64,000 nt of DNA from a virus (IMGVR_UViG_3300008259_005066:62001-126000); one strand, 5' to 3'. Shown: positions 192 through 28,757, counted from the first letter of the stretch. The notes: generated by a model not told the origin, from the letters alone. Made by a program: numbers and translations.

Positions 192-1494
192 GCTTGTCAA
201 GTATGTGGGCAAATTCTGGATACAACACACGAGCGTCAAATCCAAACACACGATCCCAGCGATCGAGATGCTGTACCAATGCTGACCAACGACGATCTCG
301 ATCATCAGGTTCTGGTAGATCCAATATCCGCAGTATTTGTAATATCTGATTTTTGGCCACCCTGCGGAAGTTGTTGGGGTCACTTTCGTTATAGTCAGAC
401 CACACATCGGCTTCATCCAGTGCATATCTTGTCAACAAATCAAGATATGGCAGTCGATACTGATCTCTTATGTTTTTGGGTACCACAGTGATATCAAGGA
501 AATCTGGATCTGTGCAGAGATTGCTTTTGATCAACAACCCCTTTTGCAAAGCCAACTCAATGACTTGCCAATAACTGCGCACTGTCAGCAATCCCGGTGC
601 TGGTCTCAAGGTCACTGTGATCGTGGTGCCATTGCACTCATTGATGTAATTCTCGATGTTGGCCAGCACCATGCTATTATCTGTGCCCTGGCGAGTGTAT
701 TCATTGAGCGTGTCCAGAGTTTCTATGCTGATCTCAAGACCCACCCTGGGGAACCGTTTGAGTTTTTCGATGATCTTTTTGTCAAAGGAAGTGCCATTGG
801 TCACGAAACTCATGCACACATCTGTGCGACCATGATCGATCAGGAAATCCACTAGATCATGGAACCGAGGTTGTATTATGGTCTCCCCGCCCATGAAATG
901 TATGTTCTTGAGTTTGGATATTGATACTAACTCCTCGCGGAATCTATTCCATACTTCTGGATCAGCGGTCCAATCCTGTGATACAGCACTGATCATGTTC
1001 CATTGACGATGTTGGCTGGCGATGCGGCTGGATGCTGACGGGTTACACATCTTGCAGGCGAGATTGCAGTAGTTGCCAAGATCAATGTGCAGATCGATTG
1101 GCATGCCATCATATGCACCTGCGTTGGATCGACTGTGTTCAAATTTTTCGAACCCAGGACTTTGCTGGTAACTTTCTGCAAAATTCTGCTTGGTGAATAT
1201 CACTGATTTCTGATTGCTACGATGCCGACGACTGGTGTCACTGACCTGTTCTTCGTGCCAGCATCTAGCACAATGATTCCATTGCTGATCCCCTAGCACT
1301 TGTAATCTAGCTTCACGCATGGGCACAGAATCATACCACTCCTTTATGGACATGTTCCTGATGTTGTATCGCTGTTTCAGCGATGTATCATAGGGAACAT
1401 TGGGAGTGGCATGACAGCAAAACGCCAAAGCGCCGTCCCAGTAGATATGTAATTCATACCACGGGCTGTTGCAGAATATTCTTTGATTAGACAT
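172..1494 (-). CDS. Radical SAM protein with N-terminal cysteine-rich (twitch/SPASM-like) domain
   Basis: Radical SAM enzymes use a 4Fe-4S cluster to cleave S-adenosylmethionine and start radical chemistry. The cluster motif CNLACKMC is seen (C143, C147, C150), followed by GGE in FMGGETIIQ. The first 80 residues carry further cysteines (C8, C26, C27, C75, C78) that could hold an auxiliary cluster, placed N-terminally rather than C-terminally as in classical SPASM proteins. At 440 aa it is a full-length protein. The substrate is unknown; such proteins are common in marine and freshwater T4-like phages without an assigned reaction. It starts 8 bases inside the end of the clpP gene, so it is probably cotranscribed with it. 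A second radical SAM gene enters at the other end of the window. Confidence 0.85.
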
Positions 1495-2077
1495 CTCGTT
1501 GGGTGATGATGCGATCAGCTAGGCCATACTCCACGGCCTGTTGTGCTGTCATCCAGTTGTCTCGATCCATATCTTTCTCCAGAGTCGCATAGTCTTTGCC
1601 GGTGTGCTGGACATAGAGTTCAGTCAAGGTCTTCTTCCAGCGCATGAGTTCTTTGTAACGGATCTCCACTTCAGTGACCTGTCCTTCAGCTCCACCCAGA
1701 GGTTGATGGATCATGTGCTGGCTGTGTGGCAGGATGAACCGCTTGCCAGCAGTGCCGGCGCAGGCCAGCATGGAGCCCATCGACGCGGCCAATCCACACA
1801 CTATGGTAGAAACATCACACTTGATGAACTGCATGGTATCATAGATGCTCATGCCCGCTGTGATTGACCCGCCTGGTGAGTTGATATAGAACAAGATGTC
1901 TCTGTCAGGATTTTCCGCTTCTAGGAACAGCATCTGCGCCACTATGAGGCTGGCTGAATGTGAGTTTACGTCTGTATCCAGCATGATGATGCGATCTCTC
2001 AGCAGGCGGCTGTAGATGTCATAACTGCGTTCTCCACGGCTAGTCTGTTCCAGCACGATAGGCACTAGATTGGGCAT
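1487..2077 (-). CDS. clpP: ATP-dependent Clp protease proteolytic subunit ClpP
   Basis: ClpP forms a 14-subunit serine peptidase barrel that degrades proteins unfolded by ClpX or ClpA. The catalytic triad is intact: S99 in GLAASMGS, H124 in MIHQPLGG and D173 in MDRDNWM. The N-terminal LVPIV segment that forms the axial gate is present, and 196 aa is the usual length. A strong Shine-Dalgarno (AAGGAGA) precedes the ATG, and a sigma70-like promoter lies just upstream. A ClpX is encoded at 27.6-28.8 kb and a second, divergent ClpP-like gene at 3.7 kb. Expected to act in the cytoplasm with phage or host ClpX; which proteins it removes is unknown. Confidence 0.95.
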
Positions 2078-2111
2078 TGTTTCTCCTTGTTGTAAGTAAG
2101 TATCCTAGATA

Positions 2112-2140
2112 AGTATAGCATACACTGAAAATATCTGCAA
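2112..2140 (-). promoter_or_regulatory. Sigma70-like promoter for clpP and the radical SAM gene
   Basis: On the minus strand TTGCAG (2135-2140) and TATACT (2112-2117) are separated by exactly 17 bases, and TG sits one base before the -10 box (extended -10). It lies 35 bases upstream of the clpP start and touches the start codon of the divergent gene at 2140. A host-type promoter would suggest early expression (inference). Confidence 0.6.
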
Positions 2141-3696
2141 TGAGAAACCTAATCGATATCATAGAAAACCTAGAAGAATCACGTGGACTCAGCGCCAGGA
2201 ATCCCGGTGAGGAATTCGTGCGCACCGGGAGCAAAGAGCAAGACGATCTCATAGTGTTCCAGGGCCTGCAATTCTATCCCGAATCTGGTGCCTATGACAG
2301 TTCTGAAGAAATGATGCAGGTTTTTGACAAACTCAAGGCCAAACTAAAACCCGGTGTAGAGCCCATAAATCGCCCCACAGCCGGCACCAAAGCATTTGGC
2401 TTGGCCACTTTTGATACAGCAGTGGGCCGCAGATACCTGGTAAAATTTGCCAAAGAGATCAACCCAATACGGACCAAGAACACATTTTTCCAGACCGCAG
2501 ACATACCTGGAGAGTTTACCTACAAGACAGCACGTGGCGAAAAAGAAACTGTGGGTTACAAGCCCAGCCAAGTGCTCACGGAATTCCGGAGCCAAACACC
2601 AGAATCTATCTATCAACAGATCATGGCCAAGTTCGGAGAAGACAGCCCCATTGGTCAAGCCACTCGCATATTCTACCAAGCCACAGACTTTCCCATCATC
2701 GTGCCCGGCGAAGGCATTGATTTCAACGGATTCCGGGACTACTTCTGCGAGATGCTACAGCCCGTGGCCTTGATCCAGGGCAAACCCATCACAGGCAACG
2801 CTGGCAAAGCCGCCGAAGTGTTCTTGGGTGGAAATTATTCTGATTGCGTGGTATCGTTCAACGAAGGCGTGAGTGGTGGCCTGTTTGACAGTCTGTTGAT
2901 CGCTCCCAATGGCAAGCAGATCAAACTCAGTTCCAAAGGCGCCAAAGGCGCCATGGCATCAGTGATCAACTTGTTGAAGTCTGCCCGAGAACTGCGCGAT
3001 GCAGGCCTTGGAGACATAGTGGATCAATATCAATCAGTGATAGATATCTTGGAAACCATAGAACAAGGCAATCACTGGAGCGGACCCATTGAACTGGCCA
3101 CACAGTTGGGTATCATCGACGAAGCCGAAGCCGGTGCCATCATACCCACGCTCACGCCTTTGACCCAGTCTGTGGACATCCGCAAGGTCCAAGGATTGAC
3201 TGACAATCTACGCCAGATCTACAATGACAGAACCGTCAAAGATGCCAGCAAGGTGGTTCCTTTGGAGCACATGGTGGCCAGCCTGGCATACAAAGTCTGC
3301 AACGAGATCAACACAAGAACCAATTTCTCTGACGCGGCCGCAGACATCCTCAACAATTCGGCCTTTGTGCAGATGTATACTGAAGCTGCCAAGAAAGGCA
3401 CGGACATCATCATCAAGGGTTTCCGCACTGTGTGGCCCAGCAAATTGTTCACACAAGTGACCATAGAAGCAGAGAAGAGTTACAGTTCTACTTCAAGTTC
3501 GGGTGGCAAGTTGGTGTTCAACATCAACAAAGAACCCAAGGCCGTGGCCAACGCAGACACATCAGGCGGCACTGAACCCGGTAGCGATCAGGACATCGCC
3601 GATTATCAAGCGCCAAGATCCGACATCAAAGCGTCAGACACAGTGGCAGTGGGTGATGAACGAGGTCTAGGAAGAAAACGCCGCAAGAACTTCTAA
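2140..3696 (+). CDS. Unknown 518-residue phage protein between two clpP genes
   Basis: A long open frame with no family I can name. It begins MRNLIDIIENLEES, an N-terminal amphipathic helix style common in T4-like structural and DNA-associated proteins. It has no signal peptide or membrane segment, contains a lysine/serine stretch (KLSSKGAKGAMAS) near residues 265-280, and ends in a basic tail (GRKRRKNF). It is divergent from clpP with only 62 bases between them and converges on the second ClpP-like gene with a 4-base overlap. A role as nuclease, DNA-binding or virion protein is possible; none is shown. Confidence 0.8.
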   Translation: MRNLIDIIENLEESRGLSARNPGEEFVRTGSKEQDDLIVFQGLQFYPESGAYDSSEEMMQVFDKLKAKLKPGVEPINRPTAGTKAFGLATFDTAVGRRYLVKFAKEINPIRTKNTFFQTADIPGEFTYKTARGEKETVGYKPSQVLTEFRSQTPESIYQQIMAKFGEDSPIGQATRIFYQATDFPIIVPGEGIDFNGFRDYFCEMLQPVALIQGKPITGNAGKAAEVFLGGNYSDCVVSFNEGVSGGLFDSLLIAPNGKQIKLSSKGAKGAMASVINLLKSARELRDAGLGDIVDQYQSVIDILETIEQGNHWSGPIELATQLGIIDEAEAGAIIPTLTPLTQSVDIRKVQGLTDNLRQIYNDRTVKDASKVVPLEHMVASLAYKVCNEINTRTNFSDAAADILNNSAFVQMYTEAAKKGTDIIIKGFRTVWPSKLFTQVTIEAEKSYSSTSSSGGKLVFNINKEPKAVANADTSGGTEPGSDQDIADYQAPRSDIKASDTVAVGDERGLGRKRRKNF

Positions 3697-4274
3697 CGGC
3701 TGACGTTGGCTATGTGATCACAGATGCCCAGTGCCAGTGCTTCCTCGGCGCTGAGCCAAACATCATTGGCAGGCAACAATTTGGTTTTGATGGTATCTTC
3801 ATCCAGCCCAGTGGTAGCACTGTAGTGATCGATCATCCGTTGTTGGGCCAATCCAAATTCCTTGGTTATAGCAAACAGTTCGTGATGCTTGCCATCACTG
3901 CCCCATGAATACTGGTGGCTGAGTATGGAAGTGTTGGGCGTGAGCACTCTGCGAGTTTTGGTGCCTGCCAGGAATATCAACAGACCACAACTGGCTATCT
4001 GACCCAGGCCCACGGTTTTGATGGGGATCGAACTGCTGTTCATGACATCGATCAGCGCAAAGGCCTCTTCCATGTCTCCGCCACGACTGCAGATCATCAG
4101 TATGAGTTCTTTTTTCTTTTTCTTGACTATGTAGTTTTCATGCAAGATCCACTCAATGATGGGCAACATGGACTCAGCGTCTACTTCACCCATAAAAGTG
4201 TAGATGCCACTTTTTTTGAGATCGTCACCTGGCGAGTATGCAACATCGTCTTTGTCTTGGATCATGGTCGACAT
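3693..4274 (-). CDS. Second, divergent ClpP-family serine peptidase
   Basis: A ClpP/crotonase-fold peptidase of 193 aa that is clearly different from the ClpP at 1487-2077. A full triad can be traced: S95 in GQIASCGL, H120 in ILSHQYSW and D171 in PANDVWLSAEEA. The substrate-binding segment SRGGDMEEA matches the SPGGS element of ClpP. It lacks the canonical LVPIV gate at the N-terminus and has a lysine-rich patch (KKKKKE, residues 51-56). It may form mixed barrels with ClpP, work alone, or be a prohead-type protease; mixed barrels are known from bacteria with two ClpPs. A TATAAT box at 4307-4312 could be its -10 element, without a good -35. Confidence 0.85.
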   Translation of the reverse strand: MSTMIQDKDDVAYSPGDDLKKSGIYTFMGEVDAESMLPIIEWILHENYIVKKKKKELILMICSRGGDMEEAFALIDVMNSSSIPIKTVGLGQIASCGLLIFLAGTKTRRVLTPNTSILSHQYSWGSDGKHHELFAITKEFGLAQQRMIDHYSATTGLDEDTIKTKLLPANDVWLSAEEALALGICDHIANVSR

Positions 4275-4365
4275 ATTTTTGAGTAGTGAATTCGTTATAT
4301 ACGCATATTATAACAAATTTTTTTGGATTGCATACTACTTATGAGCAAATCCAAAATAGGCTAGT

Positions 4366-4653
4366 TTAATTAGGGCACTGATCTCCGCGCACCACTGCGA
4401 TTTCGTAGCGATCTAAAGCGGGTGGGTTGGCGCTGTCAAGGTTAAATCCTGCTCGGCCCGCCCATCCAATATAGGTATTGATCTGCACCCCTTGATCCGT
4501 GGGTTGCGCCAAGCGTTCATTGTTCAGCATGCCCGCTTGCTGATTGTCCAGATCCGAATAACGATGGCATCCACGCCAGATCATGTTGCGATTTTGGTCC
4601 CAAAAAGTAAACAACACCGCGGGTCTGCTGTGTATCAAGTGTTGGCGCACCAA
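4366..4653 (-). pseudogene. Out-of-frame C-terminal part of the LPP20-like gene
   Basis: A 95-codon stretch with only a TTG and no ribosome site at its 5' end. The same frame stays open upstream to at least base 4860, and from about 4790 it reads like protein (GYVTIKARPGTHGWSR, then FDDSITLALVRQHL). No ATG, GTG or TTG occurs in that upstream part. The simplest reading is that this is the C-terminus of the preceding secreted protein, shifted by one frame near the gggtttt run at 4783-4789 (CAAAACCC on the coding strand). It ends in ALDRYEIAVVRGDQCPN. Whether the shift is natural, programmed or an assembly error cannot be told here. Confidence 0.55.
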
Positions 4654-4661
4654 GGCCAGCG

Positions 4662-5465
4662 TTATGGAATCATCAAAAGCCGCGGTCCGGCTCCATCCAT
4701 GTGTGCCCGGTCGGGCCTTGATAGTGACGTAGCCTTGATATTGGCAATCACGGCGATATCTGCCCAGGCAGTCTCCGGCATTGGGTTTTGGCTCACCTGG
4801 CCCAGTGCTTCGTTGAGGCTTTGCACATAGGTGGGGCGCCAGCGCACCACGAAATTCAACTCCAGTTTCTTCTGGCGATCGTCACTGTAATACACCCTGG
4901 ATGGCAGTTTTTCTATGTCATAGGCCCGGTGCGGAAAATCCACCAAGACCTGGCGCAACAGAGCATCGCCATTTTTGCGGCTGTGATCTAGAGTTTGGGC
5001 CTGGGCAGTCAAACGATCGTTGTCTATGTGTCCGGGTTTTCGATGTTCGCCCAACAAACGATCAGCCAATCGGCTGCGGCGCACCCACACATCCACGGTC
5101 ATGACCACTAGACCGTTTTGTTGCTCTACGCTTTTGACTTCATAACTGTCCACGAAACCGGCCGCATGGGCTACCACTTCAGATCTTGTCAGTGTTCGAT
5201 CTTGCACTTCGCGTTCGGATGCTATGACCGACCCCACTGCTTGATCCACCGCGGCTCTCAGGGCCTGTATGCGGGCTTCTTCTGTGGTGCGCCCATGCCC
5301 TCGTGCGGTCACGAAGTAATGTGGATGGCCATCTTTGAGCAACCAAGGAACCACCTGTATGATGATGCTGACAGGATTGGGCTTCAGCGAATCAGGGGCA
5401 CTCTGTGCCACCACTGGCGCACTGACCAACAAGGTAGTGGCCAGTGCTAGAGCGACAATACGCAT
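4662..5465 (-). CDS. Secreted LPP20/FlgT-N-like protein, probably frameshifted at its end
   Basis: An export signal (MRIVALALATTLLVSAPVVAQ) without a lipobox cysteine targets the protein to the periplasm or outer membrane. Residues about 50-115 fit the LPP20/FlgT N-terminal pattern: a TARGHGRTTEEARIQAL segment, then AVGSVIASEREV and VVMTVDVWV strands. Its start overlaps the stop of the LpoB-like gene as TAATG, so translation is probably coupled. The last 40 or so residues, ending DGAGPRLLMIP, look unlike the rest and are probably out of frame; the adjacent frame continues as the natural C-terminus. It is the third gene of a three-gene envelope operon. Confidence 0.7.
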   Translation of the reverse strand: MRIVALALATTLLVSAPVVAQSAPDSLKPNPVSIIIQVVPWLLKDGHPHYFVTARGHGRTTEEARIQALRAAVDQAVGSVIASEREVQDRTLTRSEVVAHAAGFVDSYEVKSVEQQNGLVVMTVDVWVRRSRLADRLLGEHRKPGHIDNDRLTAQAQTLDHSRKNGDALLRQVLVDFPHRAYDIEKLPSRVYYSDDRQKKLELNFVVRWRPTYVQSLNEALGQVSQNPMPETAWADIAVIANIKATSLSRPDRAHMDGAGPRLLMIP

Positions 5466-6267: not shown

Positions 6268-6292
6268 GCGAACTCCTTAAAGATTGGTCATA

Positions 6293-6335: not shown

Positions 6336-6369
6336 GGTCTAGTGACCGGTTAACCGTTTTTTTACCAAA

Positions 6370-6645: not shown

Positions 6646-6661
6646 AGTGTTTCTCCTTGAG

Positions 6662-6694: not shown

Positions 6695-6724
6695 GCGGCA
6701 TCTCCTTTGAACTATTATATATGA

Positions 6725-6804: not shown

Positions 6805-7185
6805 ATGGCTTGGACTGCTACACTCAACATCGTCAACAACACCCAATATAACCTAACCGTTAACCACAACACAGTGGGTGATTTAACTACTATCGCACCT
6901 GGTCAGTCATGGTCCTGGACCACATCTGATCCAAACAATACCAACGCCTTGCGTTTTTGGACAGTTCCGGAACAGTGGTATATGCAAGGTTCAGTGGCCT
7001 ATGGTCCCATGGCCGGAGTATACATGGACCGTGGCTGGATGGCACCCACGGATCAGACCATCCGCTTGGATGCCGATGTCAATGGCACAGGATTCTCACA
7101 GACCCAAAACGGTGGAGCCACTGTGGTGCCTTGGAACGGATTTGAATCCGGTGGCACGATCAATATGAAGTTTTCTAAGACTTGA
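6805..7185 (+). CDS. Unknown small beta-sandwich-like protein
   Basis: Start chosen at 6805 because TGGAGGA precedes that ATG at proper spacing; a longer in-frame start at 6766 has none. The 126-residue product has no signal peptide and reads as alternating beta strands rich in Asn, Thr, Gly and Trp (WTATLNIVNNTQYNL, APGQSWSWTTSD, GGTINMKFSKT). It looks like a compact lectin- or aegerolysin-like sandwich, but no family motif confirms this. It is divergent from the phasin-like gene, sharing the candidate operator, and overlaps the desaturase gene end by 11 bases. Confidence 0.75.
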   Translation: MAWTATLNIVNNTQYNLTVNHNTVGDLTTIAPGQSWSWTTSDPNNTNALRFWTVPEQWYMQGSVAYGPMAGVYMDRGWMAPTDQTIRLDADVNGTGFSQTQNGGATVVPWNGFESGGTINMKFSKT

Positions 7186-7885
7186 TGTTGTAGGCCAAAC
7201 CAAATCGTTCTAGCCCTTTGATATAAGTCCATCCTAGATCCCATTCCCAGGGTTTTTGGCTGAGTTTAGGCGAAGCTGGATCAGCATGATGATTGTTGTG
7301 TAGTTCTTCACCACCGATGAAGAATGCCCAGGGCACAATATTAGTGGAATAGTCTTTGGTTTGAGTGTTCCTATAACCCCACCAGTGTCCCAGGCCGTTT
7401 ATGACGCCGGCTGCCCACAGTGGGATCCAAATCATCTGCCATAGCCAAGGCAACCAACCCCAGTCCCAGCCCCAAATCATGCAGTTGATAAAGAACATCA
7501 AGGTCACCCCCAACCAGTTGAATGGTGCATAGATGTGACGCTCTACCCAGTCATCGGGCGTGCCCACACCATACTGGTTGACCATGGCTTTGTCTTTTGC
7601 GGCCCAGGCATAGTAAAAAGCACCGCCTAATAAAATCTGCCAAATTCCTTCATTTTGCGGACTGTGCGGATCACCTTCCGCGTCAGTGAATCTGTGATGT
7701 TTTCTGTGTGTGGCCACCCACTGTTTGGTGACCATGCCTGTGGTGAGCCACAGCCAAAATCTCATGAAATGTGCCACACGTGGATCAAATGTCACACCTC
7801 TATGTGCCTGGCTACGATGCAAGTAAAGTGTGACACAAGCTATGGTGATGTGTGTCATCACCAGGATGTATATGAATAGGAGCAT
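7175..7885 (-). CDS. Acyl-lipid/acyl-CoA delta-9-type fatty acid desaturase
   Basis: Membrane di-iron desaturase that introduces a double bond into fatty acyl chains. The three histidine boxes are present: HRSQAH (H23-H28), HRKHH (60-64) and HNNHH (196-200), with hydrophobic segments before box 1 and between boxes 2 and 3. The 236-residue length is short for the family but complete. The start at 7885 lies 4 bases after the stop of the upstream gene and begins with a hydrophobic helix, MLLFIYILVM; earlier in-frame ATGs would lie inside the neighbour. A phage copy would change membrane fluidity during infection (inference). Confidence 0.9.
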   Translation of the reverse strand: MLLFIYILVMTHITIACVTLYLHRSQAHRGVTFDPRVAHFMRFWLWLTTGMVTKQWVATHRKHHRFTDAEGDPHSPQNEGIWQILLGGAFYYAWAAKDKAMVNQYGVGTPDDWVERHIYAPFNWLGVTLMFFINCMIWGWDWGWLPWLWQMIWIPLWAAGVINGLGHWWGYRNTQTKDYSTNIVPWAFFIGGEELHNNHHADPASPKLSQKPWEWDLGWTYIKGLERFGLAYNIKS

Positions 7886-7889
7886 CAAA

Positions 7890-8501
7890 TTACTTATCCT
7901 TGATCCAGAAGCCCAATCTACTACCAGCAGGGCTGTGATACCACTGTGTACCGGGAGGCTGTTGTTGGCTGGATTCGGGCCATACAGGCCAGATCTCATC
8001 ACTATCATGATTGGCGAAATCATCATTGTATCGTAGATGCACTTCGATCACTGTATCGCCGATGTATTCTACGTTGATCCATTCCTGATAATACTTGAGA
8101 TCGTGCAACATCCCAGGAAAAGGCCGATCTAAATCCGTTCGACACCACCGTGAAAAACGATCCAATCTCCGAGGATCATCTCTGAAACCTTGCACCGTGA
8201 GATGCTGTTGGCCCCAATGGTAGTCCACTGACACATGCGGACCTTCGAGCACCTGGGTCCAGAAAAATCCATCGGGCACTGTGTCACTGTCACCTTTTTC
8301 CATCCACACGATCTGCGCACCTCGACTCATCATGCGGATGTTGGTGATAGGTCTTATCACATATTCTCCGGACCATGGTACGGGAATACCAGCCGGTCCA
8401 GCGGCGATGCCCTGTCTTCGTGCCACTATGAGTTTGTCATAGACCCACAACCACTGTGGTGGGCATGAGTCATACACGTCGCGATCGCTGACGAACTGCA
8501 T
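7890..8501 (-). CDS. Conserved hypothetical phage protein
   Basis: Start at 8501 overlaps the aldolase stop as TGATG; a GTG at 8504 is an alternative. The 203-residue protein is soluble and tryptophan-rich, with YDKLIVARRQGIAAGP, then GEYVIRPITNIRMMSRGA and GPHVSVDYHWGQQ. The order (a K/R-bearing helix, a strand ending in an invariant-looking RP, then an acidic VDYHWG strand) is faintly like ATP-grasp proteins, but I cannot identify the nucleotide-binding loop and do not assign it. Confidence 0.75.
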   Translation of the reverse strand: MQFVSDRDVYDSCPPQWLWVYDKLIVARRQGIAAGPAGIPVPWSGEYVIRPITNIRMMSRGAQIVWMEKGDSDTVPDGFFWTQVLEGPHVSVDYHWGQQHLTVQGFRDDPRRLDRFSRWCRTDLDRPFPGMLHDLKYYQEWINVEYIGDTVIEVHLRYNDDFANHDSDEIWPVWPESSQQQPPGTQWYHSPAGSRLGFWIKDK

Positions 8502-9326: not shown

Positions 9327-9433
9327 TGCAGATTGATCCATATCGCAATGGCCAGACCTGCACACCATAATACCGAGATCACAGCGTATTTGATCTTTTT
9401 GCGTCGAGATACTCTAGACCAAGTGCTTGCCAT
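9323..9433 (-). CDS. Very small membrane protein downstream of aceA
   Basis: A 36-residue frame: a basic N-terminus (WSRVSRRKKIKY) then one membrane helix (AVISVLWCAGLAIAIWINL). Its ATG overlaps the isocitrate lyase stop as TGATG and its own stop overlaps the next gene as ATGA, which argues for a real coupled gene. Function unknown. Confidence 0.6.
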   Translation of the reverse strand: MASTWSRVSRRKKIKYAVISVLWCAGLAIAIWINLQ

Positions 9434-10710
9434 CAGTGGAACTGTTCTTCTTCTGTTGAGCCTTTGAGAGCCTGGGTGGAAGCATCAGCCTCCACTGTGG
9501 TAGTCACGCGGTCAAAGTAACTGGTTCCTACTTCTCTCTGATGTTTGACAGCTTCGAAACCACGGCTCGCATCCGCGAACTCACGCTCTTGTAACTCCAC
9601 GAAAGCAGACATGCCGTCCCTAGCATAGCCATGAGCAAGGTCAAACATGCCATGATTAAGAGCATGGAATCCAGCAAGTGTGATGAATTGAAAACGGTAA
9701 CCCATTGCTCCAAGTTCACGTTGGAAACGGCCAATTGTGTCTGCATCTAGGTTCTTCCTCCAGTTGAATGATGGTGAGCAGTTGTAGGCTAACATCTTGC
9801 CCGGAAACTGTCGGTGTATGGCTTCGGCGAATCGCTTGGCGAAGTCGAGGTCGGGTTTGCCTGTTTCGCACCATACGAGATCTGCGTAAGGACAGTAGGC
9901 CAGGGCTCTACTGACTGCTTGGTCGAATCCTGCTCGGGTCCGATAGAAACCCTCCACAGTTCTTTCACCAGTAAGAAAAGGAACGTCGTTAGGATCAATA
10001 TCTGAAGTGATAAGATCGCCGGCTTCGGCATCTGTTCTAGCAATAACAAGACTAGGCACTCCCATAACATCAGAAGCGAGACGAGCGGCAATAAGTTTAT
10101 TGATGGCTTCTCGTGTTGGAACAAGGACTTTTCCTCCCATGTGTCCGCATTTCTTTACGGACGCTAATTGATCTTCAAAATGCACACCTGCGGCCCCGGC
10201 TTCGATCATGGCCTTCATGAGTTCGAACGCATTGAGCACACCACCAAATCCTGCCTCTGCGTCAGCCACGATGGGTGCGAAAAAATCTCGATCTTCTTGG
10301 TCTTCCATCCAGGCGATCTGATCTGCTCTGGTAAAAGCATTGTTGATCCTACGCACCACTGCTGGCACAGAGTCTGCGGGATACAGGCTCTGATCAGGAT
10401 ACATGGCGCCAGCCAAGTTGGCATCAGCGGCCACTTGCCACCCACTCAAATATATAGCCTTCAAACCGGCCTTGACCTGTTGCAGGGCTTGCATGCCCGT
10501 GAGTGCTCCCAGGGTGTTGACATAATCTTGTTCATGTAGCAAACGCCACAATTTTTCGGCGCCACGCCGTGCCAGACTGTATTCTATGGGGTTGGAACCT
10601 TGCAAACGCACCACGTCCTCGGCTGAATAATCACGTTTGATTCCGGTCCAGCGCGGGTTTTCTGTCCATTCTTGTTGCAGTTTGTATACCTTCCATCTAC
10701 GGTCTTGCAT
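9433..10710 (-). CDS. aceA: Isocitrate lyase
   Basis: Cleaves isocitrate to succinate and glyoxylate, the first step of the glyoxylate bypass, which conserves carbon during growth on acetate, fatty acids or stored polyhydroxyalkanoate. The catalytic signature KKCGHMGG is intact (C188), as are the metal-site segment [11 protein letters not shown] and the C-terminal GSTEEEQFH typical of bacterial enzymes. At 425 aa it is full length, with no sign of decay. The start at 10710 has a near-perfect ribosome site (AGGAGGA). No malate synthase is visible in the window, so glyoxylate would have to be used by host enzymes. A rare gene for a phage. Confidence 0.97.
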
Positions 10711-10746
10711 GGTGTTTCCTCCTGTTGAGCCAGGATATTTAGTTAC

Positions 10747-10759
10747 ATTGCAGTGCAAT
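10747..10759. promoter_or_regulatory. Palindrome ATTGCA-G-TGCAAT, candidate operator
   Basis: Perfect palindrome in the 107-base divergent region, 37 bases upstream of aceA and 59 upstream of the plus-strand gene at 10818. On the plus strand TTGCAG within it could be a -35 for GATAAT 18 bases on. The core ATTGCANTGCA recurs at 6730-6740 before the phasin-like gene. Confidence 0.5.
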
Positions 10760-10817
10760 ATGCTAGGTTTCGATAATATGCTGTGTAAATACACTATATA
10801 AAACAAAGGAGACTGCA

Positions 10818-11051
10818 ATGCTCGCATTTTTAAAAAAGTTTTTTGGTTCCAAGCCCACCGTAAGTCCTTGCCCAGAGGCCCCTTACAAAGTTGAAGCACC
10901 ACAGACCACACCTGGTGTGATACCTATGTCCACACAATACTCCGAGGCTGCGGCGCCTAAGAAAAAACCGGCTGCCAAAAAACCTGCTGGGGAAAAGAAA
11001 CCTGCTGTCCGTGCCAAAGCAGTGAGAGCCAAGAAACCTGCTGCCAAATGA
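10818..11051 (+). CDS. Small protein with histone H1-like Lys/Ala/Pro tail
   Basis: A 77-residue protein with an amphipathic N-terminus ([12 protein letters not shown]), a short linker and a basic low-complexity tail of KKPAAKK-type repeats from about residue 49. Such tails bind nucleic acid non-specifically, as in AlgP or histone H1. A strong ribosome site (AAAGGAGA) precedes the ATG. The stop overlaps the SpeD-like start as ATGA. Possible role in genome or nucleoid condensation; unproven. Confidence 0.7.
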
Positions 11052-11410: not shown

Positions 11411-12188
11411 CGAAATAACTCCGCAAGTATCCTAGGCCTTTGTATTCGATCACAGCATCAGTCATGCTCATCACACTGCTGATGATCCTTTGTTTTTTAT
11501 CTGCGTCTTGGAACACATCCCGTAGTGGTATCATGTAGACTCTGATCAAAAACAGCGCGGCTTGACTGTGTATGGGTATAGTGGTCTGGCGTTCCGATCT
11601 GAACCACATGTCATCTATTGTCTCCGTGGACCATGCTTCTACACCACTGGGATGTCTGCTCAACGCAGGACGGTTGGCTATACTCCACACTGATCTTATG
11701 AAAGGACCCCGGGTAGTGATCATACGTGCGATGTGTCCAGATGCCTTGTTGACTATGTCAAAGTCTGGCACGGGTTCATGTATTTCAAGGAAAGTCTTGT
11801 TGACTTTGGTTTGAGGATCCCACCCCGATGGCAAGCACACACTCAGTATCTGTGCAGAGAGTTCGCCGGCACGATTGGGTGCCCATATCACAAAGTCTTC
11901 CTGTAGTGCCCGAGTTAGTTGCCACACAGGAGCATCTCCTTGGATCACAGGTGCAGTGGGATCATATTTTCTCAGTGCATCTACGGCTTGATAAACCAGT
12001 TCACGACTGGCTGAATCTCCATATACCGGATTGTAGTTGTTGAGTTTGGCGTCTTGATATCGATCAAAATCCCTGTCCGTGGTCAGTATGGACTCACCGG
12101 GTTGCCAAGGTCGCATGTGCGGCCGCATGGCATAGGGAACTTCTACATCAAAAGGGATATCACACAGTGACGTGCTTGGCGAAACCAT
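11394..12188 (-). CDS. Heme-dependent oxidative N-demethylase-like protein (DUF3445/HODM family)
   Basis: The family (PF11927) is named for the alpha subunit of a heme enzyme that oxidatively demethylates dimethylamine in Pseudomonas. Features that fit: QEDFVIWAPNR, then ILSVCLPSGWDPQTKVNK, FLEIHEPVP, and the late FRSERQTTIPI followed by ALFLIRVYMIPL. At 264 aa it is close to family length. It overlaps the UV endonuclease gene by 29 bases and converges on the SpeD-like gene. The true substrate of most family members is unknown. A methylamine link to the host is inference. Confidence 0.75.
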   Translation of the reverse strand: MVSPSTSLCDIPFDVEVPYAMRPHMRPWQPGESILTTDRDFDRYQDAKLNNYNPVYGDSASRELVYQAVDALRKYDPTAPVIQGDAPVWQLTRALQEDFVIWAPNRAGELSAQILSVCLPSGWDPQTKVNKTFLEIHEPVPDFDIVNKASGHIARMITTRGPFIRSVWSIANRPALSRHPSGVEAWSTETIDDMWFRSERQTTIPIHSQAALFLIRVYMIPLRDVFQDADKKQRIISSVMSMTDAVIEYKGLGYLRSYFANRRV

Positions 12189-13179
12189 CTCTTGCTAGAT
12201 TTTTACCTTTGGCCTCGCACTGGATGTCAAACTGATCGGAGAAACCAGCGGCCCAGTCGTTCACAGCCGAATTCCAATAGAAATCCGAGTGGGCGCGGAG
12301 TTGCTGTTTTTTATGACCTCGTGCAAGAAGTCCAGCAAGATCTGGGCGAACTCGGGGATCATGATCAACAAGAATATCTTCGCGACTAACACTGTAATGC
12401 ATAGCAGGGCGAACGTCACGCCAAGACTCAACCACACGCTGAACACGATCATCTTGGGGATCGATGTATTCTCCTGTTTTGACCCAATGGTGATGAATGT
12501 CCAGCACAAGAGCCACGTTATCAGCCACAAGCAAAGTAAGGTCCAAACCATTTGATATCTCGTCGTTTTCGATAGTTATGAGATTGCGTGCCTCGGGGCT
12601 AAGTTTGCCCAGGCTACGCAAGAATTTTTCAGGCCCACCCTTGCCCGACAGGTGAACATTGATCTTGAAGCCATGATCATGCCAGGTGGCGCCATAGCCC
12701 ATCCAGCGGGCCATGTCTGCATGATATTCAAACTCTTGGATGCTACGTTCCACGATGCCGTCGTTCTCTGATGCTAACACACAGAACTGTCCAGGATGGA
12801 ATGAAAGTCTTACTCCCAACTCTCGGGCACGGGCACCCACAGGAGCAAAGATCTTTTCTAGGTGTCGTTGGATGTCTGCTTGTTGCCACCAGTCAATCCA
12901 GTTGGGTTCTGTGTAGCCTTGTAGCATTTCAGACCCCAGTCGAACCATGCGTAGATGATGAGGTAGACTGCCCACACGTTCTACCATGTTGAGAGCGGCC
13001 TGTGCATTGTGATTCATGATGTCCCACTGGCGCTGTTCTGCTTGGTCTGCATGCTCACGCAACCAACGCATGGTAGTGCTCCGCCCATTGAGTTCACGAT
13101 TCTTGGCATTGACTTTCATGCCAGCAGTTTCACTGGGATCGTCTAACCATTTACAACAAAAACCAATTCGAGCAGTCAT
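12160..13179 (-). CDS. uvsE: UV damage endonuclease (UvsE/UVDE family)
   Basis: UVDE nicks DNA 5' of UV photoproducts to start alternative excision repair. It is a TIM-barrel metalloenzyme; the expected motifs are present: ARIGFCCK at the start, VRLSFHPGQFCVL, FKINVHLSGK, ITIENDE and LVLDIHHHWV, ending with RAHSDFYWN. At 339 aa it is full length. Known in several large phages and bacteria exposed to sunlight, consistent with a surface-water phage (inference). It lies 18 bases after the preceding gene in the same direction. Confidence 0.93.
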   Translation of the reverse strand: MTARIGFCCKWLDDPSETAGMKVNAKNRELNGRSTTMRWLREHADQAEQRQWDIMNHNAQAALNMVERVGSLPHHLRMVRLGSEMLQGYTEPNWIDWWQQADIQRHLEKIFAPVGARARELGVRLSFHPGQFCVLASENDGIVERSIQEFEYHADMARWMGYGATWHDHGFKINVHLSGKGGPEKFLRSLGKLSPEARNLITIENDEISNGLDLTLLVADNVALVLDIHHHWVKTGEYIDPQDDRVQRVVESWRDVRPAMHYSVSREDILVDHDPRVRPDLAGLLARGHKKQQLRAHSDFYWNSAVNDWAAGFSDQFDIQCEAKGKNLARDGFAKHVTV

Positions 13180-21212: not shown

Positions 21213-21219
21213 CGAGCGC

Positions 21220-23861: not shown

Positions 23862-24479
23862 TTATTTGCAACCCATTCTTTCTTTGATTGTAGGGTCGTT
23901 ACCGGCGTAATCTTTACAGGCAAAATCGTCTCGGCGTGGAGATTTTTCTGCGGGCTTGCTCAAGTCAATCACGGGCGGCTTGGTAGCATAATGCCCCACG
24001 TTTTCTTTCTTGGTAGAATCTAGCACACCTCTACGTTCCCACTCAGCACGAGCATCGGCGCCAATTTTACCTTCTACTGGGCAGGGTGTGCCAGCGGCCA
24101 TCATGGCAGTAAATATACGTTCATCTTGACACAGCGTGGCCACTGCGGCGACCTTCATGCCCATGTCATATAAATTCTTTGACAGTTTGATGCGTTCGCA
24201 GTTCATGTCACGCATGGTTCCCCCCATGGAGATACCCAGGATCTGAGTCTGCACAGCACCTGACGCGGCCACGGCACACACATCATTGTTGATGGTGGTC
24301 ACAGCGGGTGCCACTGCCGTTGGTGGCGGACTTTTGATAGTGGTTGTAGAACTGGAATTGGTAGTCGACGTAGACCTGCTGGTGGAATCTGTGATGATTG
24401 GATCGGTCTGTGCAACTACTGCGGTCATAGATAGTGATAAAACTACGCCCGCCCAGAGTTTTTTATAGTTATAAAACAT
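23862..24479 (-). CDS. Secreted protein with Ser/Thr-rich linker
   Basis: 205 aa with an N-terminal signal (LWAGVVLSLSMTAVVAQ), a Ser/Thr-rich region at 30-50, and a domain with six cysteines (NDVCAVAASG, RDMNCERI, ATLCQDER, GTPCPVEG, DFACKDY, ERMGCK). AGGAGC ribosome site. Immediately upstream of the CPGY-repeat protein gene, so the two exported proteins probably work together. Family unknown. Confidence 0.75.
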   Translation of the reverse strand: MFYNYKKLWAGVVLSLSMTAVVAQTDPIITDSTSRSTSTTNSSSTTTIKSPPPTAVAPAVTTINNDVCAVAASGAVQTQILGISMGGTMRDMNCERIKLSKNLYDMGMKVAAVATLCQDERIFTAMMAAGTPCPVEGKIGADARAEWERRGVLDSTKKENVGHYATKPPVIDLSKPAEKSPRRDDFACKDYAGNDPTIKERMGCK

Positions 24480-24554
24480 CTTTTGTCTAGCTCCTTAGGC
24501 GACATAATATTTAACGGAGCCAAGACAAAAAATAAGCGGTAGTTTTATTTGTTA

Positions 24555-24797
24555 CTAAGAGATTGGTATATTTTTTAGCAGATTGATGCAGTCGTTGAAC
24601 AGTATCTGTTGATCCAGTTCATCTGCTGACAGTTGGATGTTGTCAAGGCGTTGCAGATCTTCCATGAGTTCCTGGAATTCTGCTGAGTTGACATCACCTC
24701 GCGACAATGCATCACGATATTCCAAGGCTTTTTGCACTCGATATCCCAAGGCATTGTTTTGTCTGCAGAAATTTTCTACCACTTGTTGAATGTTCAT
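24555..24797 (-). CDS. Small helical protein
   Basis: 80 aa, soluble, acidic and helical (QQVVENFCRQNNALGYRVQK, EFQELMEDLQRLDN). ATG overlaps the lipoprotein stop as ATGA. No recognised family; perhaps a regulator or virion-associated factor. Confidence 0.65.
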   Translation of the reverse strand: MNIQQVVENFCRQNNALGYRVQKALEYRDALSRGDVNSAEFQELMEDLQRLDNIQLSADELDQQILFNDCINLLKNIPIS

Positions 24798-25186
24798 GCT
24801 CGAGGTCTCCTTCCACTCACTGACAACATCTTGCGAGCGGCTTCGTTTATGTTTTTAATTTTGGCACTACAGAAAAATTTACTAGGTGGTCGGTCTCCAC
24901 GATAGCGTTGATCAAAATCTCCCACTATTTCACTGAGATTACGATTCATCTCTTGTATCTTGGAATTGTCAGGCAAGCTGGCACTGTATGTGGTCAGCCA
25001 ATCTACTTTGTGGCGTATATCTCTGCTCACTGTTCTGATTTCTTCAGTGGCACATACTGCATCTGTCTTGGTCAGTTCGATGATGTCTACCAAACGGGCT
25101 TGCTCATTATAGTCAAAATAACTAGGGAATAAAGCACAAGCCGACAGTAAAAAAGCGACACTAACGGTCGCTACTAAATTTTTCAT
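24794..25186 (-). CDS. Lipoprotein
   Basis: 130 aa from the ATG at 25186, the only start that gives a proper signal: MKNLVATVSVAFLLSAC with lipobox LSAC. The mature part is helical with two further cysteines (DAVCATEE, KFFCSAKI). It overlaps the upstream gene by 26 bases. An outer-membrane location is expected. The pattern could suit an outer-membrane spanin or an exclusion lipoprotein, but nothing proves it. Confidence 0.7.
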   Translation of the reverse strand: MKNLVATVSVAFLLSACALFPSYFDYNEQARLVDIIELTKTDAVCATEEIRTVSRDIRHKVDWLTTYSASLPDNSKIQEMNRNLSEIVGDFDQRYRGDRPPSKFFCSAKIKNINEAARKMLSVSGRRPRA

Positions 25187-25535
25187 ATACGCCGTTCCAA
25201 TCCGGACCTGGGTCCTTGTGTTTATACTTAGCGATTCTCTGAGAAATTTCATCATAGAAGCTGTTCAGCGTGCCGCCCCAGCGTCCGTGTAGGTGTTCTA
25301 TGGCCTGTTCGCAGAAACCCCAATTCCGCTTGCGATAGTTTTCCATGAGTTTGGCATGGAGATTGATGATATTAGGCATGGTACCTATTTCTTCCAATCT
25401 CACTGCATCAGTGTCCAACACACAGAAACTGTCCAAAATCGGACCATTGGATTGTATCTGTATCTGATCCAGTTCCAACACCGTGTATTTGTCCTTCAAC
25501 CCCTCTGCTGTTTCTTTGCCAAATATTATGTGCAT
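25161..25535 (-). CDS. Conserved hypothetical phage protein
   Basis: 124 aa, soluble, starting MHIIFGKETAEGLKDKYTVL. The central ENYRKRNWGFCEQAIEHLHG and GGTLNSFYDEISQRI segments are the sort of conserved motif seen in T4-like marine phage proteins of unknown role. AT-rich 24-base gap separates it from the divergent metallophosphoesterase gene. Confidence 0.75.
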   Translation of the reverse strand: MHIIFGKETAEGLKDKYTVLELDQIQIQSNGPILDSFCVLDTDAVRLEEIGTMPNIINLHAKLMENYRKRNWGFCEQAIEHLHGRWGGTLNSFYDEISQRIAKYKHKDPGPDWNGVYEKFSSDR

Positions 25536-25559
25536 AAAAAATCCTTTTAAATATGTATC

Positions 25560-26351
25560 ATGCCAATAGCATTTGATTTAATTTCAGACCTCCATGTGGA
25601 AACTTGGGATCAACCATTTGATTGGGAAGGACAGGCCACTGCTACTCTTTGTGTGGTGGCCGGAGATGTGTCTCGAGACCGTGCCTTGGTCAAAGATGCT
25701 TTGGAAAAACTCAGCCAACGATATCGTGCAGTGATGTTCATAGATGGCAACGACGAGCATCGATGGACCTTGAACGATCTTGGGGACAGTTATCGCAGTC
25801 TAGTGGAAGAAATAAGCGACATACCCAATGTTACCTATCTCCAAGACAATGTAGTCATCGTTGATGGTGTAGCATTCCTGGGTACCAATGGTTGGTGGAG
25901 TTTCGATTTTGAACCTGGAGTGGACTATGATCAGACGCGGTTGTGGTTCCAAGACAGATACCAAGTTGATAGGACAGTTTCGGATGCCATAGAATCCATG
26001 AGCATGCAGGATTTCGCTTATCTGGCCAGATCAGTGCGTAGATTGCAGACGCATCAAGACGTGAAAAAAATAGTGTTGATCACCCATACTCCACCGCGTT
26101 TGGATCTCATACATCATGACATCGAGATAGCCGACAGCTATAGGATCAACTGTTCAGGCAACAGTTATATGACGCAGGTATTGGGCGAGGACACCGAGAG
26201 CAAGATCTCTACTTGGTGTTTTGGACACTACCACGGCGATGTTGATACCACCATACAAGGCATCAGATATGTCAACAACTGTAGAGGAAGAGGCAACACA
26301 CCTTGGTGCAAGCCTGTGTATTACCCTCGTAGGATTGAAATAAGTCTCTAG
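25560..26351 (+). CDS. Calcineurin-like metallophosphoesterase
   Basis: Di-metal phosphoesterase fold with motifs in order: DLHVE (near residue 10), VVAGDVSRD, GNDEHRW (canonical GNHE, here with Asp), LITHTPPR and the C-terminal GHYHGDVD. 263 aa. The substitution in the GNHE box alters a metal- or phosphate-binding histidine, although H46 follows directly. Substrates in this superfamily range from nucleic acids to small nucleotides; none can be assigned. Single plus-strand gene that converges on clpS with a 4-base overlap. Confidence 0.88.
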   Translation: MPIAFDLISDLHVETWDQPFDWEGQATATLCVVAGDVSRDRALVKDALEKLSQRYRAVMFIDGNDEHRWTLNDLGDSYRSLVEEISDIPNVTYLQDNVVIVDGVAFLGTNGWWSFDFEPGVDYDQTRLWFQDRYQVDRTVSDAIESMSMQDFAYLARSVRRLQTHQDVKKIVLITHTPPRLDLIHHDIEIADSYRINCSGNSYMTQVLGEDTESKISTWCFGHYHGDVDTTIQGIRYVNNCRGRGNTPWCKPVYYPRRIEISL

Positions 26352-26668
26352 GCCGAATCTGGCTCTAGTTTGACCTGTAAAGGATACCCGGCACCACGTG
26401 CCATCACAGTGACTTCGATGCCTTTTTGTTCGGCTATCTCATAGGGCAACACGGCCACCACTGCAGATCCTGCTTCATGGATGTCGAAAGTGATTTTTTC
26501 TGCTGTTGAGGGGCTGTAATCAAAATGTTCTACCAGGCTTTCAATCACGAATTCCATGGCAGTTTTATTGTCATTGATGTAGATAACTTTGAACATGGGA
26601 GGTTCTTTGAGCACCTCTCTGGGCCTGACGGTTGTTTTAGTTTTGGGTTGTGTAGCAGTTTCTGACAT
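26348..26668 (-). CDS. clpS: ClpS-like N-end-rule adaptor
   Basis: ClpS delivers proteins with N-degron residues to ClpAP in bacteria. The core is recognisable: MFKVIYINDNKTAMEFVIE with the N-degron pocket residues N and D (canonical NDD, here NDN) and the conserved Met, then FDIHEAGSAVV with the pocket histidine, and ARGAGYPLQVKLEPD at the end. 106 aa. No ClpA is in the window, so it must use host ClpA, an off-window ClpA, or an unusual partner. Expressed from the same strand as Hsp20, ClpX and ClpP. Confidence 0.9.
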   Translation of the reverse strand: MSETATQPKTKTTVRPREVLKEPPMFKVIYINDNKTAMEFVIESLVEHFDYSPSTAEKITFDIHEAGSAVVAVLPYEIAEQKGIEVTVMARGAGYPLQVKLEPDSA

Positions 26669-26727
26669 GTCGTTCCCTTTGTCCTCAGTAGAGGGCGGGT
26701 GCCCTCCACTGTATTTACGCTATTATA

Positions 26728-27165
26728 TTATTTTGCGTATGAGATTGCAATACGCTTTGGCTTCATTTCTTCGGGCACGATGCGCTGTAGATGCACGTTC
26801 AAGATGCCGTCTTTCATCACAGCATCGCGAACCTCTACATAATCAGCCAGTTGGAATGTGCGCAGGAACTTGCGAGCCGAGATACCGCGATGTAGATAGT
26901 TCAATTCTGAGTCATCGGTGTTCTTTTCACCGGTGATCACCAACTGTCCTTCATGGAAATCTACATTCACTTCACCTTCGGCAAACCCAGCCACTGCCAC
27001 CTGGATTTCATAGGTGTCTTCTCCTGTTTTCAGGATGTTGTAAGGCGGGTAGTTCTGGCTTTGCGCGGCATGGTCAAACTGATCCATGATACGGTCGAAC
27101 AAGCGGTCGACGCCAATGGTATTACGATAGAAGGGGGTGAGATCAAAAGATGTGATTTTAGTCAT
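26728..27165 (-). CDS. Small heat shock protein (Hsp20/IbpA type)
   Basis: ATP-independent holdase chaperone. The alpha-crystallin domain spans about residues 38-135 (YNILKTGEDTYEIQVAVAG, VITGEKNTDD, YLHRGISARKFLRTFQL, DGILNVHLQRI). The N-terminal TPFYRNTIGVDRLFDRI is the usual IbpA-like start. 145 aa. Ribosome site AAGGAGA, preceded by a leader with a stable hairpin and a T4-type late promoter octamer. Homologues occur in many T4-like cyanophages and may assist virion assembly (established for occurrence; role inferred). Confidence 0.95.
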   Translation of the reverse strand: MTKITSFDLTPFYRNTIGVDRLFDRIMDQFDHAAQSQNYPPYNILKTGEDTYEIQVAVAGFAEGEVNVDFHEGQLVITGEKNTDDSELNYLHRGISARKFLRTFQLADYVEVRDAVMKDGILNVHLQRIVPEEMKPKRIAISYAK

Positions 27166-27196
27166 AACATTCTCCTTTTTTAAGCAAGTTGACTAT

Positions 27197-27220
27197 GTAG
27201 GCCCGACCATCGGCACCTAC
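27197..27220 (-). promoter_or_regulatory. Hairpin in the hsp20 mRNA leader
   Basis: Minus-strand GTAGG-tg-CCGA-tgg-TCGG-g-CCTAC folds into an interrupted nine-pair stem directly after the late promoter and about 30 bases before the ATG. It leaves the ribosome site free, so it looks more like a 5' stabilising hairpin than a classical RNA thermometer. Confidence 0.45.
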
Positions 27221-27225
27221 AAATA

Positions 27226-27233
27226 TATTTATA
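27226..27233 (-). promoter_or_regulatory. T4-type late promoter octamer TATAAATA (hsp20)
   Basis: Exact T4 late consensus on the minus strand, 60 bases before the hsp20 start and in non-coding DNA. Late promoters of this type need phage sigma factor gp55, which is not in the window. Confidence 0.6.
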
Positions 27234-27252
27234 CAGGATTTTTTGAGAGTTG

Positions 27253-27504
27253 TCAATATCGCTCGCCGGCCACATTAACCAATTCATATTCCAACCAGCG
27301 CCGGAACTGTTCTGGTGGGTTCCATGTCATGGCCCACATGGTATAGGTTTCGTCGTGATCAAAAGCCACACGATGTTCGTATTTTATGGTTTTTTGCGTG
27401 TATCTCACACCATATTGTTCAGCCCAACTTTGCACCTGCTGTTTGATGAATTCCAGGGTGCGGTGATAGTCGCCGTGTTGTGGCAACCGGAACCGGATAT
27501 ACAT
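27253..27504 (-). CDS. Conserved small phage protein
   Basis: 83 aa, beginning MYIRFRLPQHGDYHRTLEFI; rich in aromatic and basic residues (VRYTQKTIKYEHRVAFDHDE, then WAMTWNPPEQFRRWLEYEL). Resembles in style the 67-residue protein at 30318-30521 (both pair an MxIRFRL/YVSVTT-like strand with W-rich helix). Start follows an in-frame stop, so the boundary is firm. Confidence 0.7.
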   Translation of the reverse strand: MYIRFRLPQHGDYHRTLEFIKQQVQSWAEQYGVRYTQKTIKYEHRVAFDHDETYTMWAMTWNPPEQFRRWLEYELVNVAGERY

Positions 27505-27556
27505 TAGAACTGGCCTTTTCTACATTGCCATCCGGAACGATCACTGTTTTACCCAA
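27419..27556 (-). CDS. Possible TTG-start small frame after clpX
   Basis: A perfect ribosome site (AAGGAGGAA) lies inside the last codons of clpX, followed after 6 bases by TTG and the sequence MGKTVIVPDGNVEKASS. The start looks natural, but the frame overlaps the next gene by 86 bases and its later codons look like a shadow. It may be a remnant of a longer gene, or the ribosome site may be accidental. Confidence 0.3.
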   Translation of the reverse strand: MGKTVIVPDGNVEKASSNVYPVPVATTRRLSPHPGIHQTAGAKLG

Positions 27557-27557
27557 A

Positions 27558-28757
27558 CTATTCCTCCTTGTAAACGGGTTGTGGGTTATTTATTTGCTCT
27601 CGGTTAATAACTACGCGGTTTATCCCCCGATCACGATAGCGTTTGATAGCGAACATGTGTGGCATCAACACACGCTCAAGTTCGCTGTGCAAGGCGCGGG
27701 CACCAGTACCGAAATCTGCAGAACGCTGTGCTATGGTGGTCAAGGCCTCGTTCTCGAAATCAAGATCTATGCTGTCTGAAGCAAACAGGTGTTGATATTG
27801 ACGTATCAATGAATTCTTGGTATCTGTGAGCACATGCACCAGATCATCCGTGGTCAGTTCATCTAGGCTGACCCAACTAGGGAAACGGCCGACGAATTCA
27901 GGTATCAGACCAAATTTTACCAGATCATCGGGCATGGTCTTTTGTAGATCCACGTCACCTGATACTTTGACTTCAGCATTGAATCCCATGGAGGACCCGA
28001 ACAGTCGTTTCTTCACTATCTGGTCTAGGCCCACGAATGCGCCGCCGGCAATGAACAGTATATTGGCAGTGTCTATTTCGATCATTTCGCCACCAGGGTG
28101 TTTGCGGCCGCCACCAGCCGGAACTCGGCATACTGTGCCTTCTACCAGCTTCAACAGGGCCTGTTGCACACCTTCACCACTCACATCTCTGGTGATAGAT
28201 GTTGATTCGCTTTTTCGAGCGATCTTGTCAATTTCATCAACAAATATTATACCACGACGACATTTTTCCACATCGCCACCAGCGGCAGTGAGCAATCGCT
28301 GTATGAGACTTTCTACATCATCGCCCACATATCCGTCTTCGGTTATGCTAGTGGCATCTGCGATGGCAAAAGGCACGTCGAGATAACGTGCCACGGTGCG
28401 AGCCAGCAGGGTCTTGCCCGATCCTGTGGGGCCCAGCATCAGGATATTGGCCTTGTCTAGTTCTATTTCAGGATCGCGATTCTGTATGCGTTTGTAATGA
28501 TTGGCGATGGCCACTGCCAAGACAACCTTGGCACGGTCCTGCCCTATCACATACTGATCTAGATAACGTTTGAGTTCTTGAGGATCAATGTCTGTGTGAT
28601 TGTGTTCTCTCGTTACCGGATCCTCTTGCAAGAGTTTTTGGCAAAGATCCACGCAATCGTTGCAGATGGCCACATCATTGGCCACTATGAGTTTTTTAAC
28701 ATCGTCTTTGTGTTTGTTGCAGAAACTGCAAAGTTCGTATGAAGTATCTTCTTTCAT
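27558..28757 (-). CDS. clpX: ClpX unfoldase, ATP-binding subunit
   Basis: AAA+ unfoldase that feeds substrates to ClpP. N-terminal zinc-binding domain with C10, C13, C32 and C35; Walker A GPTGSGKT (109-116); pore loop GYVGDD (142-147); Walker B IIFVDEID (170-177); RKH loop (218-220). The ClpP-docking loop, IGF in most bacteria, reads MGF here (257-259). 399 aa, full length with no defects, so it should be active. Its stop codon region carries a strong ribosome site. The start overlaps the membrane protein gene stop as ATGA. Confidence 0.97.
   Translation of the reverse strand: MKEDTSYELCSFCNKHKDDVKKLIVANDVAICNDCVDLCQKLLQEDPVTREHNHTDIDPQELKRYLDQYVIGQDRAKVVLAVAIANHYKRIQNRDPEIELDKANILMLGPTGSGKTLLARTVARYLDVPFAIADATSITEDGYVGDDVESLIQRLLTAAGGDVEKCRRGIIFVDEIDKIARKSESTSITRDVSGEGVQQALLKLVEGTVCRVPAGGGRKHPGGEMIEIDTANILFIAGGAFVGLDQIVKKRLFGSSMGFNAEVKVSGDVDLQKTMPDDLVKFGLIPEFVGRFPSWVSLDELTTDDLVHVLTDTKNSLIRQYQHLFASDSIDLDFENEALTTIAQRSADFGTGARALHSELERVLMPHMFAIKRYRDRGINRVVINREQINNPQPVYKEE

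Follow-up and report, generated by a model that had tools for sequence, protein, structure and literature searches.

Does a large tailed phage carry its own Clp proteolytic system, and what would a second ClpP-type peptidase do in it? The question is raised by a stretch of 64,000 nucleotides, hereafter called the window, which corresponds to bases 62001 to 126000 of the 209,518-base virus record IMGVR_UViG_3300008259_005066. A first-pass annotation had placed there, on the minus strand, genes for two ClpP-type peptidases, ClpX, ClpS, and Hsp20. We found all five at the positions it gave, each with a match to a curated family, and our analysis supports its view that the phage owns a nearly complete Clp system comprising an N-degron adaptor and two ClpP-family peptidases that differ from each other. 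We propose that this virus-owned system includes an asymmetric barrel made of the two peptidases, ClpP1 and ClpP2. Taken as a whole, we consider this statement somewhat probable, and its weakest step is the pairing of ClpP1 with ClpP2, which we infer.

The positions of the five genes are counted along the window, and those of ClpA and of the head genes are counted along the whole record. ClpX (27558 to 28757, 399 amino acids [aa]) is an unfoldase that scored 538 bits against NF003745 (cutoff, 359 bits), with every motif present: the C4 zinc finger, Walker A and B, the GYVG pore loop, the RKH loop, and the MGF (IGF-type) ClpP-docking loop. The adjacent small heat-shock protein, of the Hsp20 or IbpA-like type (26728 to 27165, 145 aa), matched PF00011 with 65.5 bits (cutoff, 20.8) and phrog_432 with 135.9 bits, and the N-degron adaptor ClpS (26348 to 26668, 106 aa) matched PF02617 with 82 bits. 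The two peptidases, ClpP1 (1487 to 2077, 196 aa) and ClpP2 (3693 to 4274, 193 aa), both belong to PF00574, with scores of 266.9 bits and 98.9 bits (cutoff, 20.2), respectively. Their catalytic triads are those named in the first-pass annotation, S99-H124-D173 in ClpP1 and S95-H120-D171 in ClpP2, and we found both to be invariant in relatives (17 aligned ClpP1 sequences and 26 aligned phage ClpP2 sequences). For all five genes, comparison with relatives of ∼70 to 94% protein identity gave nonsynonymous divergence (dN) values of 0.06 to 0.28 against synonymous divergence (dS) values of ∼1 to 2.6 or saturated. This low dN at high or saturated dS indicates that the five genes are under purifying selection.

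The record comes from a T4-like tailed phage, and a bacterial fragment is excluded. Head genes are found at 188 to 194 kb of the record, where a gp21-type prohead protease (phrog_207) adjoins the genes for the portal (phrog_213) and the major head protein (phrog_138), and open reading frames (ORFs) for a helicase, a primase, and a ribonucleotide reductase were recognized by eye only. A near-identical record, G001, is 99.98% identical over 20.6 kb around the clpP genes and has a length of 315,778 bases, so the full genome probably exceeds 300 kb.

ClpP1 has the features of a standard Clp peptidase. It scored above the cutoff of the NCBIfam subfamily PRK00277, and its N terminus lies near the mature start of Escherichia coli ClpP, without a propeptide. 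The axial-loop motif is present in 32/33 ClpP1 relatives, and the docking pocket is retained almost throughout (in the numbering of mature E. coli ClpP, Y62 in 33/33, F82 in 32/33, L114 in 33/33, and I, V, or L at position 189 in 33/33). Given the conservation of these motifs, ClpP1 should be docking competent and should work with ClpX and ClpA in the usual way.

A ClpA matters here because ClpS is the adaptor of ClpA in bacteria, where it does not serve ClpX, and the five genes of the window do not include such a motor. We found ClpA on the same contig at 10873 to 13103 of the record, ∼52 kb beyond ClpP1. It is split into two adjoining frames that scored 324 and 429 bits against TIGR02639, so that neither a single open frame nor the cutoff of 993 bits was reached. 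ClpA is the best-scoring family for both halves, and intact relatives, at 779 to 892 bits, also fall under this cutoff. The break (near L003:12100) results from a deletion of 52 nucleotides relative to G001, in which clpA is intact. Other small gaps relative to G001 lie near 89.5 and 92.3 kb of the record, and these gaps are either strain deletions or assembly faults. Twenty-one distinct intact ClpA relatives (739 to 794 aa) contain Walker motifs and a docking loop of the IGF type. Since ClpA is encoded on the contig and is intact in the near-identical one, the gene content of this phage type covers two pathways, ClpXP and ClpAPS. The neighbors of ClpA are a peptide deformylase (L003:13066-13584) and a DnaJ C-terminal-like protein. 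The deformylase adjoins ClpA here, in G001, in G004, and in the cultured phage Phosso, that is, in only 4 of 21 records, and we therefore rejected it as a core part of the system and regard it as a local addition.

Phage ClpS proteins retain the residues that bind the amino group of a substrate, N34, D35, and H66, each of which is invariant in 61/61 sequences. Two further positions concern specificity. Met40, a gatekeeper, is present in the ClpS of the window and in 50/61 phage sequences, and the position of Met62, whose counterpart by alignment offset is Met75 of Caulobacter ClpS and lines the specificity pocket, is occupied by Thr in 60/61 (PMC12493166 for both roles). A changed N-terminus preference of phage ClpS is thus possible, and a pocket altered in this way might read other N termini. 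Compared with the bacterial ClpS/ClpA N-degron pathway, the phages share the amino-group-binding residues and an encoded ClpA and differ by the replacement of Met62 and by the lack of a Leu/Phe-tRNA-protein transferase (PF03588), which was absent from the 21 records searched. We accordingly discarded the idea of a complete N-degron pathway that includes this transferase.

The second peptidase is of a different kind. ClpP2 fell under every NCBIfam ClpP cutoff, its best score being 86.6 bits against a cutoff of 228. In our tree, 26 phage sequences and four sequences from contigs of metagenome-assembled genomes (MAGs) formed one clade (31 tree rows; Shimodaira-Hasegawa-like approximate likelihood-ratio test, 100), separate from ClpP1 and from the head-maturation proteases; the deeper placement of this clade is unsure, as branches are long and the tree has only three cellular references. 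The four MAG contigs are small and came from a scan of cellular genomes that used only two short peptide patterns and thus had limited reach; we take them for stray viral sequence. Every match listed by Foldseek for the AlphaFold model of ClpP2 was a ClpP, the model itself being weak (predicted local distance difference test [pLDDT], 60). Family scores, tree, and fold thus agree that the second ClpP-like protein does not group with head-maturation proteases, a point on which the first-pass annotation had made its interpretation depend. Among solved structures, the best-scoring sequence for the ClpP2 profile was 4jcr (82 bits, versus 71 to 79 for other ClpPs), which we take to be Listeria ClpP1, from an organism with two ClpPs; with so slight a margin, the Listeria ClpP1 and ClpP2 structures (4jcr, 4jcq, and 4ryf) show no special kinship to phage ClpP2.

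ClpP2 differs from ClpP1 precisely where motors and rings make contact. Arg170, which lies beside the catalytic Asp and helps to hold two like ClpP rings together, is replaced in ClpP2. In the docking pocket, again in the numbering of mature E. coli ClpP, position 62 is mostly M or I, position 82 is S, A, or G, position 114 is T (31/31), and position 189 is mostly polar or small (S, E, A, or K). The axial-loop motif, which has been linked in other ClpPs to ClpX recognition (PMC9823225), was found in 0/31 ClpP2 sequences. ClpP2 is nevertheless conserved, with dN of 0.077 to 0.091 at dS of 1.3 to 1.8 for the three closest relatives. Because the triad is intact and dN is low while the axial loop and the docking-pocket residues are lost, ClpP2 appears to be a functional peptidase onto which motors cannot latch. 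As a monophyletic, virus-type clade that is catalytically intact, judged by its triad, it appears to be a new element.

We then surveyed 46 phage records, seeded by relatives of ClpP2 or ClpS and searched for each family. The counts are not independent, as they include apparent near-duplicates (G000/G001/G002, G007/G008/G009, G030/G031, G033/G034/G035, and G040/G041). All five genes were present in 32/46 records, 16 of which also had ClpA, and all six were found in 13 of the 19 records longer than 200 kb. The first-pass annotation had called the set unusual; in the related large phages surveyed, most of them uncultured, it is instead the rule. For ClpS, a scan of viral contigs gave at least 591 confirmed stretches. 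Gene order and strand are conserved in divergent genomes, mostly as ClpX-Hsp20-ClpS...ClpP2-ClpP1...ClpA. In nearly all records, ClpX is 1.2 to 4.0 kb from Hsp20 and Hsp20 is 0.4 kb from ClpS; ClpS is usually 10 to 28 kb from ClpP2, ClpP2 is within ∼4 kb of ClpP1 in most, and ClpA is usually ∼47 to 73 kb beyond ClpP1. The exceptions are the cultured phages and the records G034, G040, and G041, in which, after correction for record ends, ClpP1 is ∼80 kb from ClpP2. DnaK was absent from 16 of the 17 records searched, and we rejected it as a partner of the system; the remaining record, G028, has a full DnaK (G028:C1:223318-225111, 865 bits) between ClpX and Hsp20, within a larger chaperone cluster.

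We propose that ClpX and ClpA, as ATP-driven unfoldases, would dock on a ClpP1 barrel through their IGF-type loops, that ClpS would pass substrates with bulky hydrophobic N termini to ClpA, and that Hsp20 would hold misfolded protein until it is refolded or disposed of. ClpP2 would act as the other peptidase, its active site intact and itself probably unable to receive a motor, and a ClpP2 ring would most likely stack on a ClpP1 ring to give a single-headed, asymmetric barrel with an altered cleavage preference, by analogy with mycobacterial ClpP1P2. During a long infection, such a machine would let the phage turn over proteins and control their quality without relying on the host Clp genes. 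The asymmetric barrel is our leading model because clpP2 and clpP1 are adjacent and the docking features of their products are complementary. In Mycobacterium smegmatis ClpP1P2, the ATPase docks on one ring only, under the control of the pocket composition together with a C-terminal extension (PMC6889138). The proposed phage barrel would resemble it in having two ClpP types and a single ring fit for ATPase docking; the nondocking ring differs, being set apart in mycobacteria by its pocket composition and by the C-terminal extension that it carries, whereas phage ClpP2 is missing the axial loop together with several residues of the pocket.

Several points weigh against the asymmetric barrel. 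A gene order can be retained in a single lineage even if the products are not physical partners, clpA is broken in the contig, and the structural model of ClpP2 is, as mentioned above, of low confidence. Moreover, the complete genome of cyanophage BUCT-ZZ01 encodes ClpP2 without ClpP1, ClpX, ClpA, or ClpS, so ClpP2 does not always need a phage ClpP1; conversely, ClpP1 does not need ClpP2, because several records longer than 200 kb (G027, G029, G036, PA5oct, and Atu_ph07) hold ClpP1 and lack ClpP2.

These separate occurrences, together with the docking features missing from ClpP2, are what one would expect of two independent peptidases, with ClpP1 acting in normal ClpXP and ClpAPS complexes and ClpP2 forming a barrel or ring of its own, either motorless or with a partner that does not use an IGF loop; without a motor, its substrates would be peptides or unfolded protein. 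We regard this as a serious though doubtful alternative, given that clpP2 and clpP1 are neighbors in most genomes and co-occur in 32/46 records, and that ClpP2 has lost Arg170, an established holder of like rings. The asymmetric barrel can also be extended, in that ClpP2, as its motor-unfed back ring, and the pocket-changed ClpS would together make a complete, host-separate N-degron protease with its own choice of substrates; this combination strikes us as rather unlikely.

A third explanation is that the phage reprograms host proteolysis, its ClpS, ClpX, and ClpPs mixing with host ClpA, ClpX, and ClpP to target host regulators or defense proteins instead of building a machine of their own. 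A 2021 review indeed puts forward host ClpAP as the recipient of targets delivered by phage ClpS (PMC7824862), and both the broken clpA of the contig and the BUCT-ZZ01 ClpP2, which has no phage-encoded Clp partner, would fit such mixing. The whole set, ClpA included, in 13/19 records longer than 200 kb reads instead as self-sufficiency, and we found no PADLOC or counter-defense link, the defense-system models of PADLOC giving only weak AAA matches, for ClpX; host reprogramming therefore seems quite unlikely to us. The weakest proposal, that one of the ClpPs, ClpP2 or ClpP1, matures the head by trimming capsid proteins, takes its appeal from the label "head maturation protease" of the PHROG groups that match both ClpPs and is refuted on present evidence, leaving it hardly any probability: a separate gp21-type protease stands beside the portal and major head protein genes of the contig and likewise in 15/22 related records searched, ClpP2 scored 86.6 bits against NCBIfam ClpP versus 56.4 bits against the ClpP-related head-maturation model, the tree sets both ClpPs apart from head proteases, and the top fold matches of ClpP2 are all ClpP, which together rule out a prohead protease role for ClpP2.

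As to substrates and timing, candidate roles are to remove host regulators or defense proteins, to turn over early phage proteins, and to maintain quality control while a long infection lasts. We favor a core task over a host-specific counter-defense because the system is conserved across the lineage. In the usual account, phages borrow the proteases of the host or inhibit them. The conservation of two motors, two peptidases, an N-degron adaptor, and a holding chaperone across many large phages points to a need for phage-supplied protein turnover during their infections.

The general idea of phage Clp sets is already known, since cultured phages carry such sets and phage Clp proteins have been described. 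In jumbo phages, ClpP, ClpS, ClpA, and ClpX were already noted by the 2021 review (PMC7824862), and ClpA is one of the near-core genes given in a 2025 paper for a different lineage of aquatic jumbo phages (PMC12619734). The first-pass annotation had asked whether its five genes are standard in a described genus, which holds in part: four of the five, with ClpA, occur in Pseudomonas phage PA5oct (Wroclawvirus, Arenbergviridae) and Agrobacterium phage Atu_ph07 (Polybotosvirus), and ClpP2 is missing from both. PA5oct resembles our contig in its cluster of ClpX, Hsp20, and ClpS in the same order, with ClpP and ClpA encoded outside the cluster, and differs by a single ClpP-family protein and by encoding FtsH. 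Atu_ph07 likewise has ClpX, ClpA, ClpP, ClpS, and Hsp20 and differs in having one PF00574 match only, hence no ClpP2; its 2018 description lists seven Clp-family proteins and DnaJ and reports ClpB (PMC6102473). All six genes are present in the cultured Sinorhizobium phage Phosso (PV764938, 469 kb), whose ClpP2 is 50% identical to that of the window and whose peptide deformylase adjoins ClpA as in the contig; its genes are more scattered, with ClpP1 and ClpP2 85 kb apart and ClpX 16 kb from Hsp20. In a limited literature search, we found no prior description of the ClpP2 clade or of the conserved gene order that joins ClpXP with ClpAPS. The set is compact enough for a clean test of the role of a second ClpP, and cultured carriers make the question directly testable.

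A convergent gene for a 518-aa protein with no assigned function (2140 to 3696, plus strand) separates clpP2 from clpP1 in the window and in most related loci. It had no Pfam or PDB match, only uncharacterized phage proteins were matched, and its structural model is partly confident (pLDDT, 77). Its N terminus, a short helix followed by L-x-E, recalls the capsid-targeting signals of T4, and such a pattern is weakly above background (5/33 versus 4/137); the protein may be a packaged head protein. We treat it as a neighbor, its membership in the Clp system not being shown.

On the other side, clpP1 adjoins a gene for a radical S-adenosylmethionine (SAM)/SPASM protein (172 to 1494, minus strand), and several similar ORFs were seen by eye elsewhere in the record. 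Further genes on the minus strand of the window encode IscA- and IscU-type iron-sulfur assembly proteins, which adjoin each other (43515 to 43844 and 43828 to 44220), a UvdE-type UV endonuclease (12160 to 13179; PF03851, phrog_8420), and a fatty acid desaturase (7175 to 8026; PF00487). A full isocitrate lyase (9433 to 10911, minus strand) scored 785.8 bits against NF011645 (cutoff, 562) and had no PHROG match; the enzyme is encoded in 6/24 related records, and a protein of 59% identity is found in Phage C48C1.

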